A DNA stretch of 41,060 bases from Xanthobacteraceae bacterium (lineage in GTDB: Bacteria; Pseudomonadota; Alphaproteobacteria; Rhizobiales; Xanthobacteraceae): NCBI GenBank assembly GCA_030037885.1, contig JASHPU010000232.1, positions 1 to 41,060 of the forward strand. Reading direction: 5' to 3'. The translations under genes and the position numbers were made by a program. The notes beneath the pieces were generated by a model, which was not told where the DNA came from, made no database searches, and saw only the letters and a list, made by a program, of their open reading frames with translations. How positions within the stretch are numbered: position 1 is the first letter of the stretch; each line of letters starts with the position of its first letter. Of this stretch, positions 8,034-34,773 are shown in pieces.

Positions 8034-8435
8034 CTAATGCAGGAGGCGCCGCAACGCCCGGCCGGCGGGTGTGTCGAACTCCGCCGCGCTTATCGTGCCG
8101 TCGTTATCCGGGTCGGCCGCCTTGAAGCGCCGCTCGACGAGCGCAAGGTACTCGTCCTTGCTCAGCGTCTTGTCGTGATCGGGATCGCTTGCGGCGAACG
8201 CCTTGCGGCTGAGCCGGCCGCGCAGCTCCTTGATCGTGACGGTGCCGTCCTTGTCGGTATCGAGCCTGTCGAACGTAGCGCTGGCGGCCTTCTTGGCTTC
8301 GGCAAGATCGACGGTGCCGTCATTGTCGGTGTCGAATTGGGCAACCGGCGATGTCCTGGCCTCGGCGATGGCAGGGGCAGCCGCCGCGCAAAGACCGGCA
8401 AAGGTCGCGAACATGGCATTGCGACGCGAAATCAT
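8034..8435 (-). CDS. Lanmodulin-like periplasmic protein with four EF-hands
   Basis: A 133-residue exported protein with four EF loops: D35-E46, D59-E70, D84-E95 and D108-E119. Loops are separated by only 12, 13 and 12 residues, the tight spacing known from lanmodulin and unlike calmodulin (about 25). Loops 3 and 4 have the lanmodulin Pro at position 2 (DPDHDKTLSKDE, DPDNDGTISAAE); loops 1 and 2 have Thr there. Asp at position 9 is kept only in loop 1, and loop 3 has Lys for Gly at position 6. Overall length and the C-terminal helix (TPAGRALRRLL) also fit lanmodulin. The signal peptide begins SRRNAMF, a twin-arginine-like motif. It sits near a TonB receptor, as lanM sits by lutH in Methylobacterium. 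Calcium rather than lanthanide binding remains possible. Confidence 0.85.
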   Translation of the reverse strand: MISRRNAMFATFAGLCAAAAPAIAEARTSPVAQFDTDNDGTVDLAEAKKAASATFDRLDTDKDGTVTIKELRGRLSRKAFAASDPDHDKTLSKDEYLALVERRFKAADPDNDGTISAAEFDTPAGRALRRLLH

Positions 8436-8531: not shown

Positions 8532-8885
8532 TCACGGCTTGCACGATGTAAGGTCTTTTTCCTCAATCGTAAAAATGCCGCCCGCCTCGACTTTCACATT
8601 GCGAACAATACACGCGCGGCCTTTGGCATCCACCAATTTGGCATCATAAATACCTGATGAGACGTCCGTTATTCGGAGCCGCTCGTCCGAATCGACGGCG
8701 CCGTCTTTGTCGTTTTTGCACTGGTTCGGCCCCCACTTCGTGGTGCCGGCCGGCGCCAGGTAGAATTCCGAAATGGTGTTGCGCGTCAGATTCCAGAACC
8801 GCGTCGGCTTGCCCTGGGCCACGGCTTGGCTCGTCATGACAGCCAAGCCGGCTATTGCGAGGATGATGCGGAACAAGGTTGTCAC
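8532..8885 (-). CDS. Small secreted protein with an EF-like acidic loop
   Basis: A 117-residue protein with a Sec signal peptide (TTLFRIILAIAGLAVMTSQA, cleavage near AVAQ-GK) and a mature beta-rich domain. It contains FWNLTRNTISEFYLAPAG, KWGPNQC and a C-terminal IEEKDLTSC; three Cys are present in the mature part. It resembles a family of short exported rhizobial proteins of unknown role. Residues 57-68 (KNDKDGAVDSDE) match an EF loop at positions 3, 5, 6, 8, 9 and 12 but have Lys at position 1. The start is uncertain: GTG at 8885 is the choice that makes a clean signal peptide; TTG at 8888 is next to it. The frame is open upstream but the codons there are not protein-like. Confidence 0.65.
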   Translation of the reverse strand: MTTLFRIILAIAGLAVMTSQAVAQGKPTRFWNLTRNTISEFYLAPAGTTKWGPNQCKNDKDGAVDSDERLRITDVSSGIYDAKLVDAKGRACIVRNVKVEAGGIFTIEEKDLTSCKP

Positions 8886-8905
8886 CAATCTTCTGCGCTG
8901 AGAGT

Positions 8906-8974
8906 CTACCGGCTGAATTTGTAATTCAAGCCGGCGCCCGCGGTCCAGCCTGTTCCGGAGGTCGTGGTCGGGGA
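8906..8974 (-). pseudogene. Relic of an outer-membrane barrel C-terminus
   Basis: Between the TonB receptor stop and the small secreted gene, one minus-strand frame reads PTTTSGTGWTAGAGLNYKFS, then Arg and a TAG stop at 8906-8908. It has no start and meets a stop on its upstream side (8975-8977). GWTAGAG also occurs in the free-standing barrel protein at 12310-13020, and a final NYKF/NYRF strand closes the TonB receptor fusion. I infer an internally deleted remnant of a third copy of that barrel family. Confidence 0.45.
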
Positions 8975-9071
8975 TCATCGGGAAACTGCTTGGGCGTCGC
9001 CAAGGGCGGCGCCAGCGTTTTTGTTGGAGCCTCCGTTTCATCGAAGCGGCACAAGCGGCCGTCACGCCGGG

Positions 9072-12000
9072 CTAGAAGGTAAATCGATAATTGACACCTG
9101 CGCGCACGATGCTCTCGTCGAATTTTACGGCAACGTCAGGGATCAATGACGGTCCGTTGGCGTTGGCGATGGCGCAAGCTGTGGTGCATGACCCGTTGCC
9201 GAGGTCGACGAACAGATATTCGGCCTTGGCGCTCCAATTGCGATTTAAAGCGACCTCGACGCCTGTACCTACGGTCCAACCCGCCTCAACCGCGTTGCTG
9301 ACCGGGTCATTCGAGAAGCTCGCCTGGACGTTGCCGAAAGCGGCGCCGCCGGTGCCGTAGACGAGAAAGCGGTCGAACGCATAGCCGGCGCGACCACGCA
9401 CGGTGGCGAGCCAGCTGTTCCCGGTCAGGCAACCTCCGGCGCAGAGGCTGGCGCTGGTGAAGGTGCCGAAACCGCTGGCGTCGGTCCAATCGCCATCGGC
9501 CTCGACGCCGAACACCAGCCAGCCGGTCTGGTAATTGGCGCCGAGCGTCCCGCCGAAAGCAAAACCGGAGGTGCCGAAGTTGCCGCTCGATGTGCCGGTC
9601 ACGCTATCCGACCAATCGCTGCCGCCGAAGCTATAGCCGGCGTTGACGCCAAGGTAGACCCCGGTCCAATCGACCGACGCAATGCCGGCAGGCGAGGCTT
9701 TCGTGATCGTCGGCCGCGACGTAAAGGCGGCGAATGCCGATCCGTCGGTGGGGAGCGTCCCCTTCACTCCCACATAGGCGGCAAACGGCATGCCGGGCAG
9801 GAAGGTACGGTCGTCGGCCAGATTCAGATAACCAAACTCGGTGACATCCGTTAATAGTCCGTAGGTGTAGTAGTGTTGATTGAATAAGTTGCGTATCAGC
9901 CCGAACACCTCGATGTTATCCGAAATCTTATACGACGAGTGCAAGTTCACCACCCAATAAGCCGGCACTTGGGGGAGCTGGTTCGACTCGTCGCCAACGA
10001 GCCACTGGCTGCCGACGACGTCAAGATCGGCGCCGAATTTCCATGGCGCGGTGATCTGGTATTCGCCGCCAAGCTTGAAGCGGAAGTCGGGAATGCCGGT
10101 CAGATGATCGCCGGGAACAATGTTCTGGGTGCCGCTCGCGTTCACCGTCGAGGGCAGAAGCAAGCTGCTCAAGAATGTGGCGTCGACGGTGGTGTAGTTG
10201 GCATAGATGTTGAAGCGATCCCACTTGTACGACGCGTTGGCTTCGATGCCCTGCCGCAGCGTATCGCCGGCGTTCTGAAAAAACTCGCGCCCTATGGCCA
10301 CCGATTGCGGGGTCAGTACGTCGATGATGTCGTTGGTATTGAGCGCGCGGTAAGCGCCCACGCTCCAATTCGCATGCCCGCCGGCGAGGTCGAATTGGCC
10401 GCGCAAGCCGCCCTCATAGGTATACGTCACCACCTGTTGCAGCGGGGGATCGCCGACAAGAGCGTTATCGATCAGGCATGGCCGCGACGGGTCGGAACAC
10501 TCCAATTCCAACGGCGTCGGCGCGCGATTTGAAATCGCATAATCGCCATAGAGCGTGAGGTTCGGCGTGATCTTATAGGTTGCGCCGATCATGGGATTGA
10601 AATGAGCGAAGGTGTCGTTGCCGTTGAGTTCGGAGTCATTGCCCAATTCGTCGGTCAAATTGATTTGGGCGATGTTGTACCGAGCCCCTGCGGTAAGCGA
10701 CAGACGCCGGGTGAGATCGAACGTGTCGGTCGCGTAGAGGCCGGTATAGAGCGTCGTTGCACCGAGGCCGACCGGCGCCACGCCGCCTATGCCGGCGGAC
10801 GAAGGCTGGTCGATGAACAGGCCGCTGCCGATGACGAACGGATACGTATTGGGGTTGACCGTTCCGAGTTCGCTCGTGGTCGAGAACTGCACCAGCCCGC
10901 GATCGACGCTCAGGCCCACCGTGAAATTGTTGTCGTGATCGAATACTCGCTCTGAAGACGCCGCCTGGACCGAGCCGCCGAAGCTGTCGGTCGTCGTCCA
11001 GGTTCGGTCGATTTCGCCCAAGACATTCGGAAAACCCAGAGCACCGGAGTTCGGGACATTCTGTCCCGTCGTTGTGACGAGGGGAGAAGTCGTGCCGTTG
11101 GGGTTATCAAAGCAGAGCGGATCCGACGGGCTTCCGGTCAGGCATCCTGGCGTGTTGTCCGCGTTCGTGCCATTGCCGTCGACGTGGGCTTGATCGAAAT
11201 GGCGATAGTAGGTGACGGCCTGATAGGTCCAGGTGTCGGTCGGCTTCCAGCTTGCGCTGGCAGTCAGAAACGCCAATTGATTATGCGTTGTCTGCGGAAC
11301 GGTATAGATGCTCGACCAATTCTGGTCGAGCAACTGCACTGGAGTGGCGGCGGCAGCGCCGAAGGTGTTATCGGCGCCGGTGAAGGTGATGTGGAATTCG
11401 GTATTGTTGTCACCCTGGGCGCCGAGATCGGTGTAAACGCGGCGCACCGAGGATGCCGAGTCAAGACGCCAGCCGGCATCGTCGATGGCGTCGGCCGCGA
11501 TGTAGCCGGAGAAGTTTCCGACTTGGCCGCCGGCCTGTACCGACGTGCCAACCCGCCCAAATGATCCACCGTTTAATTCGGTTTCCACACCATGATAGGT
11601 GAAGCCGTTTTTCATGTCGAACGACAGCGCGCCGCCAATCGCGTTGAGTCCGAAGACCGGATTGCTCGGGTAGAGGGTAAGATTATTAATGGCGTTCTGC
11701 GGGATGAAGTCCCAATTGACGATGTCGCCGAAAACCTCGTTGATGCGCACCCCGTTCTGATAGACGGCCAGCCCCTGCGGCGTGCCAATGACCGGGGAAG
11801 CGATAAAGCCGCGATAATTGAGATCGAGCTGGAATTGATTGCCGGTCTGGTCGCTCAACGCCACGCCAGGCAGGGCTTGGGACATTGATTGCAAGAGGTC
11901 GGGCGACCTGGTGGAATCAAAGGCAGGGGATTCAACGACCTGGACATTGGATGGGATTTTGTCCTGGTCCACGGCCCCCGGTATGGATACCGTGGCGGGC

Positions 12001-12302
12001 GCCGCCGCGGGCGCAGGAGCCGCAGCCGCAGGCGCCGCAGCCGCGGGAGCCCTGGACGCAGCACCGGCAGGTCGGGCAGCGCGCCGCGGTCGGACCGTCT
12101 GCGGAACCGGGGTGGTCGCGATCACGTGGATCTCGGGAAGCGTTACCCCGCTTGAGCTTCCAGTCGAACTTGAAGCTTCCTGCGCCGCAACGGTTCTTGG
12201 TGCAATTGCCAGCACCACCGGGAGCGCCCGGAGCAATCCGCGAAGCGCCGCCTCCCTGACCGACGTCCTTGTTCGGCCAGCCAGACCTGCAACGTTGCCC
12301 AT
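9072..12302 (-). CDS. TonB-dependent receptor with a C-terminal fused outer-membrane barrel; LutH-like candidate
   Basis: A 1076-residue outer-membrane protein. Residues 1-40 are a signal peptide; LPEIHVIATTP at 55-65 is TonB-box-like. An Ala/Pro-rich spacer (about 71-104) precedes the plug (about 110-235: SPDLLQSMSQALPGVAL, YRGFIASPVIGTPQGLAVYQ, VRINEVFGD, VFGLNAIGGALSF). The 22-strand barrel runs to about 849 and ends in the usual terminal strand FLPGMPFAAYVGVKGTL. Instead of stopping there, the protein continues with a 25-residue linker and a second small barrel (about 876-1076) of the Omp25/RopB type, ending in the terminal strand AGVNYRFTF. ATG at 12302 has GAGGGG ahead and lies 7 bases after the upstream barrel gene, so the two form one operon. 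The nearby lanmodulin-like gene suggests lanthanide(-chelate) uptake; the substrate is inferred. Confidence 0.85.
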   Translation of the reverse strand: MGNVAGLAGRTRTSVREAALRGLLRALPVVLAIAPRTVAAQEASSSTGSSSGVTLPEIHVIATTPVPQTVRPRRAARPAGAASRAPAAAAPAAAAPAPAAAPATVSIPGAVDQDKIPSNVQVVESPAFDSTRSPDLLQSMSQALPGVALSDQTGNQFQLDLNYRGFIASPVIGTPQGLAVYQNGVRINEVFGDIVNWDFIPQNAINNLTLYPSNPVFGLNAIGGALSFDMKNGFTYHGVETELNGGSFGRVGTSVQAGGQVGNFSGYIAADAIDDAGWRLDSASSVRRVYTDLGAQGDNNTEFHITFTGADNTFGAAAATPVQLLDQNWSSIYTVPQTTHNQLAFLTASASWKPTDTWTYQAVTYYRHFDQAHVDGNGTNADNTPGCLTGSPSDPLCFDNPNGTTSPLVTTTGQNVPNSGALGFPNVLGEIDRTWTTTDSFGGSVQAASSERVFDHDNNFTVGLSVDRGLVQFSTTSELGTVNPNTYPFVIGSGLFIDQPSSAGIGGVAPVGLGATTLYTGLYATDTFDLTRRLSLTAGARYNIAQINLTDELGNDSELNGNDTFAHFNPMIGATYKITPNLTLYGDYAISNRAPTPLELECSDPSRPCLIDNALVGDPPLQQVVTYTYEGGLRGQFDLAGGHANWSVGAYRALNTNDIIDVLTPQSVAIGREFFQNAGDTLRQGIEANASYKWDRFNIYANYTTVDATFLSSLLLPSTVNASGTQNIVPGDHLTGIPDFRFKLGGEYQITAPWKFGADLDVVGSQWLVGDESNQLPQVPAYWVVNLHSSYKISDNIEVFGLIRNLFNQHYYTYGLLTDVTEFGYLNLADDRTFLPGMPFAAYVGVKGTLPTDGSAFAAFTSRPTITKASPAGIASVDWTGVYLGVNAGYSFGGSDWSDSVTGTSSGNFGTSGFAFGGTLGANYQTGWLVFGVEADGDWTDASGFGTFTSASLCAGGCLTGNSWLATVRGRAGYAFDRFLVYGTGGAAFGNVQASFSNDPVSNAVEAGWTVGTGVEVALNRNWSAKAEYLFVDLGNGSCTTACAIANANGPSLIPDVAVKFDESIVRAGVNYRFTF

Positions 12303-12309
12303 GTGCCCC

Positions 12310-13020
12310 TCACCACGAGCCGAATTTGAAATTGACGCCGGCGCGTATGACGCTTTCGTCGAAGCTCGCAACAGAGCCCACGGCGCCTTGGCAGTTCGCC
12401 ACAGTCGTACATGGCGCATTCGGCAGATCAACGAAGAGATATTCGAATTTGGCGGTCCAATTTCGCGTGAGGGCAAATTCGATTCCGGCGCCGGCTGTCC
12501 AGCCCACCCCGACGCTGTTGTCGAAAGTCGCAGGAGGATTCAGGCCGGTTTGGATATTGCCTAAAGCTGCGCCGGCGGTGCCGTAAAACAGGATACGGTC
12601 GAAGGCATAACCGACGCGGCCGCGCAACGTGGCGAGCCATTCGCTCTGGGTCTGACAAGCATCGGGGGGCGGCACCACCGCAGAAATGGCGCCACAGGTG
12701 GGGCCGGTATTACCCGAAAGATTGGTCCAGTCGCCGTCACCCTCGAGACCAAATACGTACTGTCCTATTTGGTAGTTGGCGCCGACCGTACCACCAATGA
12801 GAAAGCCTGACGTGGGGAAGTTGCCGCTCGTTCCCACGGAACTGTCCGACCAATTGCTGTTGCCGGTCCCATAGCCGCCATTGATGCCGATGTAGAAGCC
12901 GGTCCAATTGTAAGCAGGCGATGGGACTGGAGGACTTGGCGTCGAAAGGTCGGCGGCACGTGCATCTGCGGTGCCAGCCAGCACCACCATTGCGGCTGCG
13001 ACGATAGATGGCCTCCTCAT
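12310..13020 (-). CDS. Outer-membrane beta-barrel protein (Omp25/RopB-like)
   Basis: A 236-residue protein with a signal peptide (about 1-22, cleavage ARA-AD), a short Pro/Ser-rich linker and an eight-strand barrel. The family's NWTGFYIGINGGYG start, GYAFDRILFYGTAGAALG middle, NWTAKFEYLFVDL and a C-terminal RAGVNFKFGSW are visible. It is clearly similar by eye to the C-terminal module of the next gene: both contain WSDS, NF.TSGF, GGT.GANYQ, DGDWT and LATLRGR or LATVRGR. ATG at 13020 has GGAGAG six bases upstream. First gene of an operon with the TonB receptor. Such proteins are usually abundant structural porin-like proteins; a role beside this receptor is inferred. Confidence 0.88.
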   Translation of the reverse strand: MRRPSIVAAAMVVLAGTADARAADLSTPSPPVPSPAYNWTGFYIGINGGYGTGNSNWSDSSVGTSGNFPTSGFLIGGTVGANYQIGQYVFGLEGDGDWTNLSGNTGPTCGAISAVVPPPDACQTQSEWLATLRGRVGYAFDRILFYGTAGAALGNIQTGLNPPATFDNSVGVGWTAGAGIEFALTRNWTAKFEYLFVDLPNAPCTTVANCQGAVGSVASFDESVIRAGVNFKFGSW

Positions 13021-13520: not shown

Positions 13521-13528
13521 TTATCGAT
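13486..13528. repeat. 15-base tandem repeat at the end of the pentapeptide gene
   Basis: GGGCTTTATCGACAT occurs twice in tandem (13486-13500 and 13501-13515) and a third partial copy (GGGCGTTATCGAT) runs into the stop codon of the pentapeptide-repeat gene at 13521-13523. A 15-base period equals five codons, the period of that protein's repeats, but the repeated units lie after its stop. Confidence 0.7.
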
Positions 13529-14291
13529 TCGGCGTCATCGCCAGCCCTTTTGCGCCATTAAGGGTTGCGCCGGCAAAACTGGCGCCGGTCGCCGTCGCGC
13601 CGGTGAAATTCGCGCCGGTCAAATCAGCTCCGGCGAAATCGACGTCTTTCAGATCTGCTTTCGAGAAATCGGCATTTGAAAGCTTGGCAAACTCGAAGTT
13701 GGCGTGTTCGAGCGAGGCTCCTTCGAAGTTGGCATCCACTAGGTTCGCCTGCGAGAAATCGGCGCGTATCAAACCCATGGACTGGTTGCGCATGTCCGCC
13801 GACGCATGCAGATGGGAAAGATCCGCTCCGCGCATATTGTCGAGACTGAATCGCGCCATGACCTTGGCGCCGGAGAGATCGGCGGCGACGAAGTTCGCTG
13901 CCTCTTGCGGCTGTGTTTCCATTCCTGCCGAGACGACGAGTGTTTCCAGATCCGCATTCGAGAGATCGGCGTGCGAAAAGTCGGCGCGTATGATCCATGC
14001 GAGATTGAGCTTCGCCCGCGTCAGCTTGGCGGCGACAAGCTTGGCCGCAACCAGCTTGGCGCCGCGCAGATCGGCGTCCGTGAGATTCGCACCCGACAGA
14101 TCGGCGTTGGTGAAATCCAGGTCGTGAAGATCGAGCCCGACGAGGGACCGCCCGGAGAAATTTGCCCGCTGGCCGGCTGGTGCGGACGCCAGCGCCGACT
14201 GCACGTCGGCGCGTGTGAGTTCGGCGGCGCAGGCGCTGGATGCGGTCAATATCAGGCAGGCCATCCACGCCACGCGTGACGACAGATGCAT
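13521..14291 (-). CDS. Exported pentapeptide-repeat protein
   Basis: A 256-residue protein with a signal peptide (MHLSSRVAWMACLILTASSA, then CAAE) and then a right-handed beta-helix built from A(D/N)LXX units: NADLSGANLTDADLRGAKL, several AKL/ADF units, and a second block near the end (ADFSKADLKDVDFAGADL, then GANF units). A linker about residues 125-150 interrupts the helix. ATG at 14291 has GGAGGAG ahead; a start at 14306 would lie in the ribosome site. Function of exported pentapeptide proteins is generally unknown. It stands between the metal block and the C1 genes and is not obviously in an operon with either. Confidence 0.85.
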   Translation of the reverse strand: MHLSSRVAWMACLILTASSACAAELTRADVQSALASAPAGQRANFSGRSLVGLDLHDLDFTNADLSGANLTDADLRGAKLVAAKLVAAKLTRAKLNLAWIIRADFSHADLSNADLETLVVSAGMETQPQEAANFVAADLSGAKVMARFSLDNMRGADLSHLHASADMRNQSMGLIRADFSQANLVDANFEGASLEHANFEFAKLSNADFSKADLKDVDFAGADLTGANFTGATATGASFAGATLNGAKGLAMTPNR

Positions 14292-14321
14292 TGCGGCTCC
14301 TCCCACAATCAGTGTCTCGAA

Positions 14322-31403: not shown

Positions 31404-33206
31404 ATGCGTTGTTTCTCACTTACGGTCGGTATCTGCATGGGACTGGTCGCAACGCTTACCGCGGCCAGTGTCTATGCCGATAGCGATGAGGAAAAAGCAG
31501 CGGCAAACCCAGCCAATTGGGCAATGCCGCGGCTGAACAACAGCCTAACCGCCTATTCAACGCTGAAGCAGATCAACACCGGCAATGTCGGCAAGCTGCA
31601 GGTCGCATGGACGTTCTCCACCGGCGTGCTTCGCGGCCACGAAGGTGCACCGCTCGTCATCGGCGATGTGATGTACTTAGTCACCCCGTTTCCGAACATC
31701 GTGTATGCGCTTGATCTCAATCACGATGGGAAGATTATTTGGAAGTACGAGCCAAAGCAGGATCCCAATGTCATCCCGGTGATGTGCTGCGATACCGTCA
31801 ATCGTGGCTTGTCGTTTGGTGACGGGAAGATTTTCCTGCACCAAGCCGACACGACGCTGGTTGCGCTCGACGCCAAGACCGGGAAGGTAGTGTGGTCGGT
31901 GAAGGATGGCGACCCGACGAAAGGCGAAACCGGCACGTCGGCGCCGTTCGTTTACAAGGACAAGGTCCTGGTCGGAGATTCCGGCGGAGAATTCGGCGTT
32001 CAGTGTCATATGACCGCCTACGACATCAAGGACGGCAAGCGGGTGTGGCGAGGCTACTCTGAGGGCCCCGACGATCAAACTCTCATCGATCCCGAAAAGA
32101 CAACTTCGCTCGGCAAGCCGGTCGGAAAGGATTCCAGCCTAAAAACCTGGCAGGGCGATCAGTGGAAGATCGGCGGCGGCTGCACTTGGGGCTGGCCGTC
32201 CTACGATCCGCAGCTCAATCTGATCTACTGGGGTTCAGGCAATCCGTCGACGTGGAACCCGAGCCAACGCCCGGGCGACAATAAATGGTCGATGACCATC
32301 TGGGCCCGCGACCTGGATACCGGCGTTCCCAAGTGGGTCTATCAGATGACGCCCCACGACCAGTGGGACTATGACGGCGTCAACGAGATGATCCTGACCG
32401 ATCAGCGCATCAATGGCCGCGAGCGCAAGCTCGTGAGCCACTTCGATCGCAACGGTCTCGGCTACACGCTTGACCGCGTGACCGGCGAGCTCCTCGTCGC
32501 CCAGAAGTACGATCCGGCGGTGAACTGGACCAGCGGAGTCGACATGAACAAAAACTCCGCGAACTATGGCCGGCCCACGGTCGTTGAGAGATATTCGACC
32601 GAGACGCCGGATGTAAACCATACCGGCATCTGTCCGGCGGCACTTGGAACCAAGGACGAGCAGCCGGCCGCCTATTCGCCGGAAACGCAGCTGTTCTACG
32701 TGCCGACGAACCACGTCTGCATGGACTACGAGCCGTTCAAGGTCAGCTACACGGCGGGTCAGCCTTATGTCGGGGCGACGCTCTCGATGTACCCGGCCCC
32801 TGGCGGCAACAACATGGGCAACTTCATCGCCTGGGACGGCAAGACGGGAAAGATCGTCTGGTCCGACCCCGAGCTGTTCTCGGTGTGGTCTGGCGCGCTG
32901 GCGACTGCCGGAGGCGTGGTGTTCTACGGCACGCTGGAAGGTTATCTGAAGGCGGTCGACGCCAAGACGGGTAAGCTGCTTTACAAGTTCAAGACCCCGT
33001 CCGGCATCATCGGCAACGTCATGACCTACGAGCACGGCGGCAAGCAATATGTGGCAGTGCTGTCTGGCGTCGGCGGCTGGGCGGGAATCGGCCTTGCGGC
33101 CGGCCTGACCGATCCGCACGCCGGCTTGGGCGCAGTGGGCGGCTACGCCGCACTGAGCAACTACACGGCGCTCGGCGGCCAGCTCACGGTCTTTACGCTG
33201 CCTTGA
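31404..33206 (+). CDS. xoxF: Lanthanide-type PQQ methanol dehydrogenase XoxF (XoxF5-like)
   Basis: Periplasmic quinoprotein that oxidises methanol (and often formaldehyde), passing electrons to XoxG. The 600-residue protein has a signal peptide (cleaved near residue 25), eight tryptophan-docking beta-propeller blades and the PQQ-site vicinal disulfide Cys128-Cys129 ([10 protein letters not shown]). Metal ligands are Glu196, Asn280 and Asp322. Asp324, two residues after the catalytic Asp in [11 protein letters not shown], marks a lanthanide enzyme; calcium MxaF has Ala there. [17 protein letters not shown] closes the last blades. Cys201, where relatives usually have Gly, is unusual. A strong terminator follows, then xoxG and xoxJ. 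No mxaF is in the window. Confidence 0.97.
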
Positions 33207-33864: not shown

Positions 33865-34773
33865 ATGAGGAACTTAGCCGGTTGTTGGTTGCTGTCCTGC
33901 GCGGTCGCCTGTTGCACGCTGGGCGTCGTGTCCGTGCCGTCCGCTTCGCTTGGGCAGGGTGCGGCCGCGCCTGCCGGGTCAGCCAGTGTGTTGCAGGGCG
34001 GATTGGAACTGATCGATCCCAAGGTCCTGCGGGTCTGCGCCGACCCCAACAGTCTGCCGCTGTCGAACGACAAGGGCGAAGGCTTCGAAAACAAGCTTGC
34101 CGAACTCTTCGCCGCCAAGCTCGGCAAGAGACTCTCTTACACCTATTATCCTGAAGCCACCGGATTCGTGCGGAACACGCTCGGATCGTACCGTTGCGAC
34201 GTCATCATGGGGTTTCCCCAAGGCGATGATCTCGTGCTGAGCACCAACCCTTATTTTCGGAGCGGATACGCGTTCGTAGCCAAATCCGACAGCCCGCTCG
34301 CCGGCGTGGATACGCTCGGCGACGCGCGGCTGAAGGACAAGCGACTCGGCATCGTGGCCGGCACGCCTCCGGCAACGTACCTGGTCATGGACGGATTGAT
34401 GCAGAAGGCGAAGTCCTATCCGCTCGTGGTCGACACGCGCTACGATTCGTCACCCCTGGCAATGATCAATGACATCAAGTCAGGGGTGATCGACGCCGGT
34501 ATCTTGTGGGGGCCGCTCGCCGGATACTACGCCTCCCGCGCCAACCCGCCGATGCATACGACGCTGCTCCTGAAGGAGAAAGGCGGGCCGGGTCTTGTTT
34601 ACCGGATCGTCATGGGCGTTCGTCCTTCCGATGCCAATTGGCGACGGCAGCTGAACCAGTTGATTGCCGACAACCAGCCGGCAATAAACAAGCTGCTGCT
34701 CGATTACGGCGTGCCAATTCTCAACGAGCAAGATCAGCGCATCACCGCGGACGCTCTGACAGAAAAGCCGTGA
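33865..34773 (+). CDS. xoxJ: XoxJ/MxaJ-type periplasmic binding protein
   Basis: A 302-residue exported protein of the solute-binding fold, required with XoxF/XoxG in methylotrophs and thought to help activate or mature the dehydrogenase rather than transport a solute. After the signal peptide (about 1-30) it shows LRVCADPNSLPLSNDKGEGF, YYPEATGFVRNTL, CDVIMGFPQGDDL and GILWGPLAGYYA. No permease or ATPase gene is adjacent. ATG 33865 has AAAGGCGG upstream, 37 bases after xoxG. The stop overlaps the rhodanese-like gene as GTGA. Confidence 0.92.
   Translation: MRNLAGCWLLSCAVACCTLGVVSVPSASLGQGAAAPAGSASVLQGGLELIDPKVLRVCADPNSLPLSNDKGEGFENKLAELFAAKLGKRLSYTYYPEATGFVRNTLGSYRCDVIMGFPQGDDLVLSTNPYFRSGYAFVAKSDSPLAGVDTLGDARLKDKRLGIVAGTPPATYLVMDGLMQKAKSYPLVVDTRYDSSPLAMINDIKSGVIDAGILWGPLAGYYASRANPPMHTTLLLKEKGGPGLVYRIVMGVRPSDANWRRQLNQLIADNQPAINKLLLDYGVPILNEQDQRITADALTEKP

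Follow-up and report, generated by a model that had tools for sequence, protein, structure and literature searches.

How has a TonB-dependent receptor come to carry a second outer-membrane barrel at its C-terminus, and what might the pair be for? The question is raised by a gene on a contig of 41,060 nucleotides (JASHPU010000232.1, GenBank assembly GCA_030037885.1) from a Xanthobacteraceae bacterium; this stretch, at its full length, is referred to below as the window. Comparison with related genomes leads us to regard it as probable that the gene encodes a LutH-like receptor for lanthanides or lanthanide chelates which, in one group of a Xanthobacteraceae genus, gained an eight-stranded barrel by gene fusion.

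The fused gene and its predicted structure

The gene is a single open frame of 1076 codons on the minus strand (12302–9072), in which a TonB-dependent receptor is followed by a linker and an OMP_b-brl barrel. Its parts are as follows.

9072–12302, minus strand: fused gene, receptor, linker and eight-stranded barrel, 1076 residues (open frame, Pfam domains, orthologues L016, L018 and L017)
12108–12140, minus strand: TonB-box-like stretch LPEIHVIATTP, residues 55–65, after the signal peptide (by-eye reading of the translation and alignment)
11628–11966, minus strand: plug domain, residues 113–225 (PF07715, 35.7 bits, cut-off 23.9)
9753–11627, minus strand: receptor barrel, residues 226–850, last strand ending YVGVKGTL at residue 850 (PF00593 at residues 300–806)
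9675–9752, minus strand: linker, residues 851–876, about 26 residues (low model confidence, mostly looser selection)
9075–9674, minus strand: fused eight-stranded OMP_b-brl barrel, residues 877–1076 (PF13505 and predicted structure)

All three Pfam domains score above their curated cut-offs, the receptor barrel (TonB_dep_Rec_b-barrel, PF00593) with 135 bits against 27 and the OMP_b-brl barrel (PF13505, residues 875–1074) with 71.2 bits against 28.7. The plug and barrel domains assign the protein to the TonB-dependent receptors, with TonB-driven transport as the predicted activity; LPEIHVIATTP is what we take to be the TonB box. Having at least two barrel domains within one open frame, the product is also a multi-barrel protein. 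The original prediction, made from the window alone, had proposed two barrels in one chain joined by a linker, and the Pfam domains and the single frame bear this out, residue numbers included. It had further called the small barrel Omp25/RopB-type; this was tested at the level of PF13505, and family membership is established at that level. The computed mass of the protein is 109 kDa, assuming that the mature chain starts at Q41, a guessed cut site.

An AlphaFold2 prediction for the C-terminal part alone gave an eight-stranded barrel with a predicted local distance difference test score (pLDDT) of 75.5; residues 877–1076 are accordingly predicted to form an independent barrel, in line with the original prediction. 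Linker residues 851–875 have pLDDT values below 50 nearly throughout and are predicted to be disordered. The best structural matches to the small-barrel model were OmpA, OprG and OmpW, and the fused barrel shares its Pfam family, strand number and fold with the PF13505 barrels of this type. Unlike the free PF13505 barrels, it sits at the C-terminus of a receptor and lacks its own hydrophobic signal peptide. Sequence searches of the PDB with the single protein and with a small-barrel profile gave no match.

Distribution of the fusion

A scan of genome contigs yielded 31 pattern-matching stretches, 12 of them relatives; 11 distinct loci encode a relative. The two-domain layout, for which the original prediction had proposed a search for other full-length examples, recurs complete in two separately assembled genomes (L016 and L018) and across two contigs in a third, G075, where the fused gene (L017) runs 41 residues past the junction to the contig end and a second contig, beginning with an exact 83-base overlap to that end, carries the remainder of the fused barrel. 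Receptor identity to the window is 96% for L016, 94% for L018 and 79% for L017.

In a survey of 20 genomes of the genus (threshold E 1e-30), the receptor was fused in four (G000, G063, G068 and G075) and unfused in five (G002, G064, G065, G069 and G076); G072 shows only the 5′ part of the receptor, and the other ten have small-barrel matches and no receptor match. These absences are weak, because 11 of the 20 genomes are listed as less than 90% complete.

The C-termini of receptor frames of at least 300 residues (blastp, E 1e-60) were then compared, with identical C-terminal stretches merged. Of the 33 rows, L002, L078 and L080 are truncated excerpts of the genes in the window, G063 and G068; setting these aside left 30 distinct receptors whose C-terminus can be seen, four fused and 26 unfused. 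Of the unfused receptors, 23 end within 0–3 residues of the position equivalent to window residue 850: among the homologues from the genus, L019, L020, L021 and L024 stop at that position and L022 and L063 within three residues of it. Since the unfused relatives end there, the fusion point corresponds to the ancestral C-terminus. The three other unfused receptors, all of genus g128 (L125, L156 and L158), extend 15–18 residues further; counted from the last aromatic residue of their terminal strand, the tail is 15 residues long and finishes with RKY. In L024 (L024:761–1948, genome G064) only residues 38–292 and 729–850 match, residues 293–728 being gone with the frame kept; this gap is either a real deletion or a misassembly.

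The linkers of the fused genes follow the pattern P(T/S/A)xGxAFA...TKA(S/P)PAG, with G(S/P)AFA common to all four fused species. Compared by eye with the paralogues, they resemble the end of a signal peptide followed by the proline-rich start of a mature free barrel, which suggests that the fusion joined the receptor, at its stop, to the beginning of a barrel gene. No independent fused receptor outside the genus was found in 41 genomes of the family (searched with the receptor part), 12 chosen genomes and the 31 stretches, and none of the 249 plasmid records with a match covered 80% of the fused protein.

Origin of the second barrel

Directly upstream of the receptor lies a free barrel gene.

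12310–13020, minus strand: upstream free barrel gene, 236 residues (PF13505, 65 bits)

Its stop is 7 nt before the receptor ATG and is overlapped by a GAGGGG stretch, so that the two genes are probably translated together. They adjoin in the window, G063, G068 and G072. In G075 (L087:2640–3900) the match to the free barrel is confined to its last 37 codons, while the fused barrel is retained; further upstream of this remnant, the sequence looks by eye like a two-component regulator.

The original prediction derived the fused barrel from this upstream gene by duplication. The similarity is there, and the four motifs cited for it (DGDWT, GANYQ, YAFDR and EYLFVDL) are shared by fused domain and upstream gene; a closer kinship to the upstream gene than to unlinked paralogues does not emerge. 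Identity between the fused and the upstream barrel is 57–58%; where the paralogues were compared alongside, the fused barrel scored 57.2% against the upstream barrel, 58.5% against an unlinked paralogue (L067, genome G066) and 56–57% against L025 and L026. Trees were built only from OMP rows of at least 100 bits; a first alignment (A1) scattered the first residues of the free barrels, and these rows were trimmed for a second (A2). With the long-branched L006 and L071 omitted, a tree of 26 rows recovered a clade (99/96) made up of the fused barrels, the upstream barrels and L067, in which L067 groups with the fused ones (89/80). A clade of fused and upstream barrels alone was not rejected (approximately unbiased test, p = 0.141), and the 28-row tree gave no resolution of their relationship. 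Since an unlinked paralogue resembles the fused barrel at least as closely as the upstream gene does, a local duplication is unproven; the sequences decide neither for nor against it.

Likely substrate

The small protein next to the receptor is followed by lanM, two genes downstream of the receptor, and the window also carries tetrahydromethanopterin-linked C1-transfer genes, the region being a methylotrophy island with xoxF. The original prediction, sound as to the barrels, had missed this lanmodulin and XoxF context, which supplies the likely substrate.

8532–9065, minus strand: small protein between receptor and lanM, start codon uncertain (no Pfam match for 8532–8930)
8034–8435, minus strand: lanmodulin LanM, 133 residues, with EF-hand loops (NF053806, 157.2 bits, cut-off 135; EF-hand Pfam families)
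31404–33206, plus strand: XoxF-type pyrroloquinoline quinone (PQQ) methanol dehydrogenase with WDYD (TIGR03075, 746 bits; WDYD read in the translation)
33865–34773, plus strand: MoxJ/XoxJ-like periplasmic protein (TIGR03871, 284.8 bits, cut-off 212.15)

The WDYD of XoxF is presumably the lanthanide-Asp motif. The small protein is conserved beside the fused receptor in G063, G068 and G075, with lanM following it in G063 and G075, and is also found near lanM in G024 (L047), G187 (L133) and G218 (L134). A pentapeptide-repeat protein at 13521–14306, between the barrel operon and the C1 genes, has a relative in the lanM stretch L047.

Across 41 genomes of the family (G000–G040), a receptor homologue is present in all seven with lanM above the cut-off and in two of the 34 others (Fisher p = 1.6e-6; 7e-6 without the window's own genome). 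The remaining 12 lanM-positive genomes, a set searched without lanM-free controls, all have a homologue at E 2.2e-145 or better, giving 19 of 19 overall; G041, the five weakest others, six genomes of genus g81 and G087, with lanM matches only below the cut-off, were left out of this set. The receptor stands directly before lanM in G002 (66 bp apart) and G249 (about 260 bp), plasmid pMNOD02 of Methylobacterium nodulans has receptor, response regulator and LanM in that order, and in G024 and G187 receptor and lanM lie within about 20 kb (the lanM stretches L047 and L133 hold no receptor and stop short of it). The receptor adjoining lanM in G249, which as a reference is not the M. extorquens LutH itself, matches the window receptor at 42% (E 8.0e-164). 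Because the homologue tracks lanM and the gene sits in a lanM and XoxF context, the receptor is most likely LutH-like and would serve lanthanide uptake.

According to extracts of the published accounts, the lut cluster of M. extorquens holds LutH (p1785) and lanmodulin (p1786), and a strain lacking mxaF and lutH was growth-arrested on methanol in the presence of La3+ and acclimated only late, with growth after 90–120 h in about 60% of 24 cultures (PMC7391723). An extract on M. aquaticum likewise describes the closest homologue of the strain AM1 receptor as needed for La-dependent growth without mxaF (PMC9260416). LutH of Methylorubrum extorquens and the window receptor are thus both TonB-dependent receptors near lanmodulin, the homologues of the latter co-occurring with lanM; the window receptor differs in its second barrel, of which there is none in the 26 unfused homologues compared.

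The main rival as to substrate, import of PQQ (the XoxF cofactor) or of an iron chelate instead of a lanthanide complex, arises from the solved structures nearest to the receptor in sequence, YncD and an entry named pyrroloquinoline quinone transporter. The PqqU model (NF041535) also matched, with 75.5 bits, far from its cut-off of 1200 bits, so that the protein does not classify as PqqU. With the homologue tracking lanM, and standing directly before it or one gene away in the three cases given above, we consider PQQ or iron-chelate import unlikely.

Selection on the two modules and the nature of the junction

Ratios of nonsynonymous to synonymous substitution (dN/dS) were calculated by the Nei–Gojobori method, the G075 value for the fused barrel being taken from the second contig. 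Between the window and G063, G068 and G075, respectively, dN/dS is 0.12, 0.13 and 0.14 for the receptor barrel, 0.18, 0.15 and 0.19 for the fused barrel and 0.09, 0.52 and 0.48 for the linker, which has only 25–26 codons. Between G063 and G068 the values are 0.18 for the receptor barrel, 0.25 for the fused barrel and 0.39 for the linker, and the upstream free barrel gives 0.16 (window and G063) and 0.23 (window and G068). Constraint acts on the receptor barrel and the fused barrel alike and is mostly weaker in the linker, its low G063 value apart.

These figures bear on the idea that the fused barrel, itself without a role, is a neutral passenger of a stop-loss fusion that occurred by chance. 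It is seen only in one group of the genus, no function is known for it and selection against misfolding alone could also lower dN/dS. The fused barrel is nevertheless held at ratios close to the 0.12–0.18 of the receptor barrel, and it has been kept in G075, where the free upstream barrel is recognizable over only 37 codons; we therefore think a passenger improbable.

Still less credit is due to a precursor cut in the linker into two separate barrels in equal amounts. The linker is predicted to be disordered and is mostly loosely constrained, and G(S/P)AFA, which each of the four fused species has, looks like a signal-peptide end. The region, however, lacks a hydrophobic stretch, with a 19-residue mean hydropathy of at most 0.70 around the linker compared with 1.44 in the upstream signal peptide, and no protease is known here. 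A cut signal peptide within the linker was likewise judged unlikely, from hydropathy alone.

A sequencing or assembly artefact, a stop missing between two genes, might be suspected from the metagenomic origin of the named fused relatives and the split of the G075 gene over two contigs, and is scarcely credible given the same in-frame junction in four species (the others 79–97% identical to the window) and purifying selection in both modules. On the same two grounds, the sequences indicate that no stop or frameshift is missing near 9700–9760 and that the fusion is genuine.

Proposed mechanism

If the gene encodes a LutH-like receptor extended by fusion, both barrels would sit next to each other in the outer membrane with the ends of each facing the periplasm, and the linker of about 26 residues would consequently stay on the periplasmic side. 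TonB would power the plug of the large barrel, with the small barrel as a tethered partner in a 1:1 ratio. The likeliest role of the latter would be to position, stabilize or oligomerize the receptor, perhaps together with the free upstream barrel. The β-barrel assembly machinery (BAM) would have to handle the two barrels one after the other, through an internal and a terminal strand signal.

Several observations weigh against this account. On the structural side, prediction of the whole chain (14 sequences) reached a pLDDT of only 33.8, so that we infer the side-by-side arrangement, and the best solved-structure matches of the receptor profile are YncD and the PQQ transporter noted above. The window genome is a draft in 309 contigs, and the three named fused relatives (L016, L017 and L018) are metagenome assemblies from one project. 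As to substrate, the LutH-like label stems from context and co-occurrence, and the NCBIfam receptor models match the fused protein only below their cut-offs. G005 and G010 carry a receptor homologue and no lanM match, and in G068, where the small protein is present, no lanM was found within the 19.9 kb examined. The other lanM stretches (L048–L053, L055–L057, L124, L126–L132 and L134) contain no receptor, as is the case for most of those taken from other genera; direct adjacency of receptor and lanM is therefore not general.

Other multi-barrel proteins

The genome of the window has 18 PF13505 matches, five of which fall within longer multi-barrel frames; there are four such frames, the fused receptor among them. 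On contig C226 (L142:996–4847) a frame of 1284 residues combines a plug and TonB receptor barrel with two PF13505 barrels, a candidate three-barrel protein. It resembles the window gene in placing PF13505 barrels after a TonB receptor in one frame and differs in the receptor itself and in having two small barrels instead of one. Its top plasmid relative, from Afipia OM5, is annotated with 777 residues and adjoins nikR; no barrel follows when that relative is read past its stop, and none of 176 plasmid records with a match covered 80% of the C226 protein. Contigs C146 (L143:2125–4185) and C242 (L144:8616–10688) each encode a protein in which a PF13505 barrel at the N-terminus precedes an OprB-family porin domain. 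With four such frames in one genome, small barrels have probably been joined to larger ones on more than one occasion, the other three frames being candidates by their sequence domains.

The abstract of Solan et al. 2021 reportedly states that combinations with eight-stranded barrels prevail and that such fusions are lineage-specific, a pattern into which the window case would fit. Outer-membrane proteins with several barrels have been described as a class (Solan et al. 2021, as cited in extracts of PMC11494523 and PMC9603273), with GfcD and its homologues as the largest cluster in the extract of PMC11494523. The GfcD/YjbH class likewise has more than one barrel domain per polypeptide; in GfcD, according to the same extract, these are 12- and 13-stranded barrels with a periplasmic middle domain, whereas here a TonB receptor, a short linker and an eight-stranded barrel are combined. 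The original prediction saw in the two barrels a folding problem for BAM; the two barrels in one chain are there, and the problem is not peculiar to this gene, given the described class and the three further candidates in the genome. Among the matches listed in our literature search, none dealt, by title or start of abstract, with a TonB receptor to which a second barrel is fused. The fusion is real and under selection, and while the multi-barrel class has already been described, a LutH-like receptor with a tethered small barrel would be a new member of it.

Implications

Nature here offers a before-and-after pair: among close relatives the same receptor occurs either alone or with a second barrel attached, and the junction can be placed to the residue. 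This pair makes testable both the assembly of two barrels per chain by BAM and the contribution of a partner barrel to rare-earth uptake, and the case points to a lineage that repeatedly joins small barrels to larger ones. A bolder proposal, which we hold to be rather unlikely, is that the small barrel is a dedicated covalent subunit of the lanthanide receptor, pairing with the free upstream barrel or capturing chelates at the surface, and that the lineage repeatedly fuses OMP_b-brl barrels to receptors and porins into such complexes. If this were true, rare-earth uptake in the group would run through a fixed multi-barrel complex.

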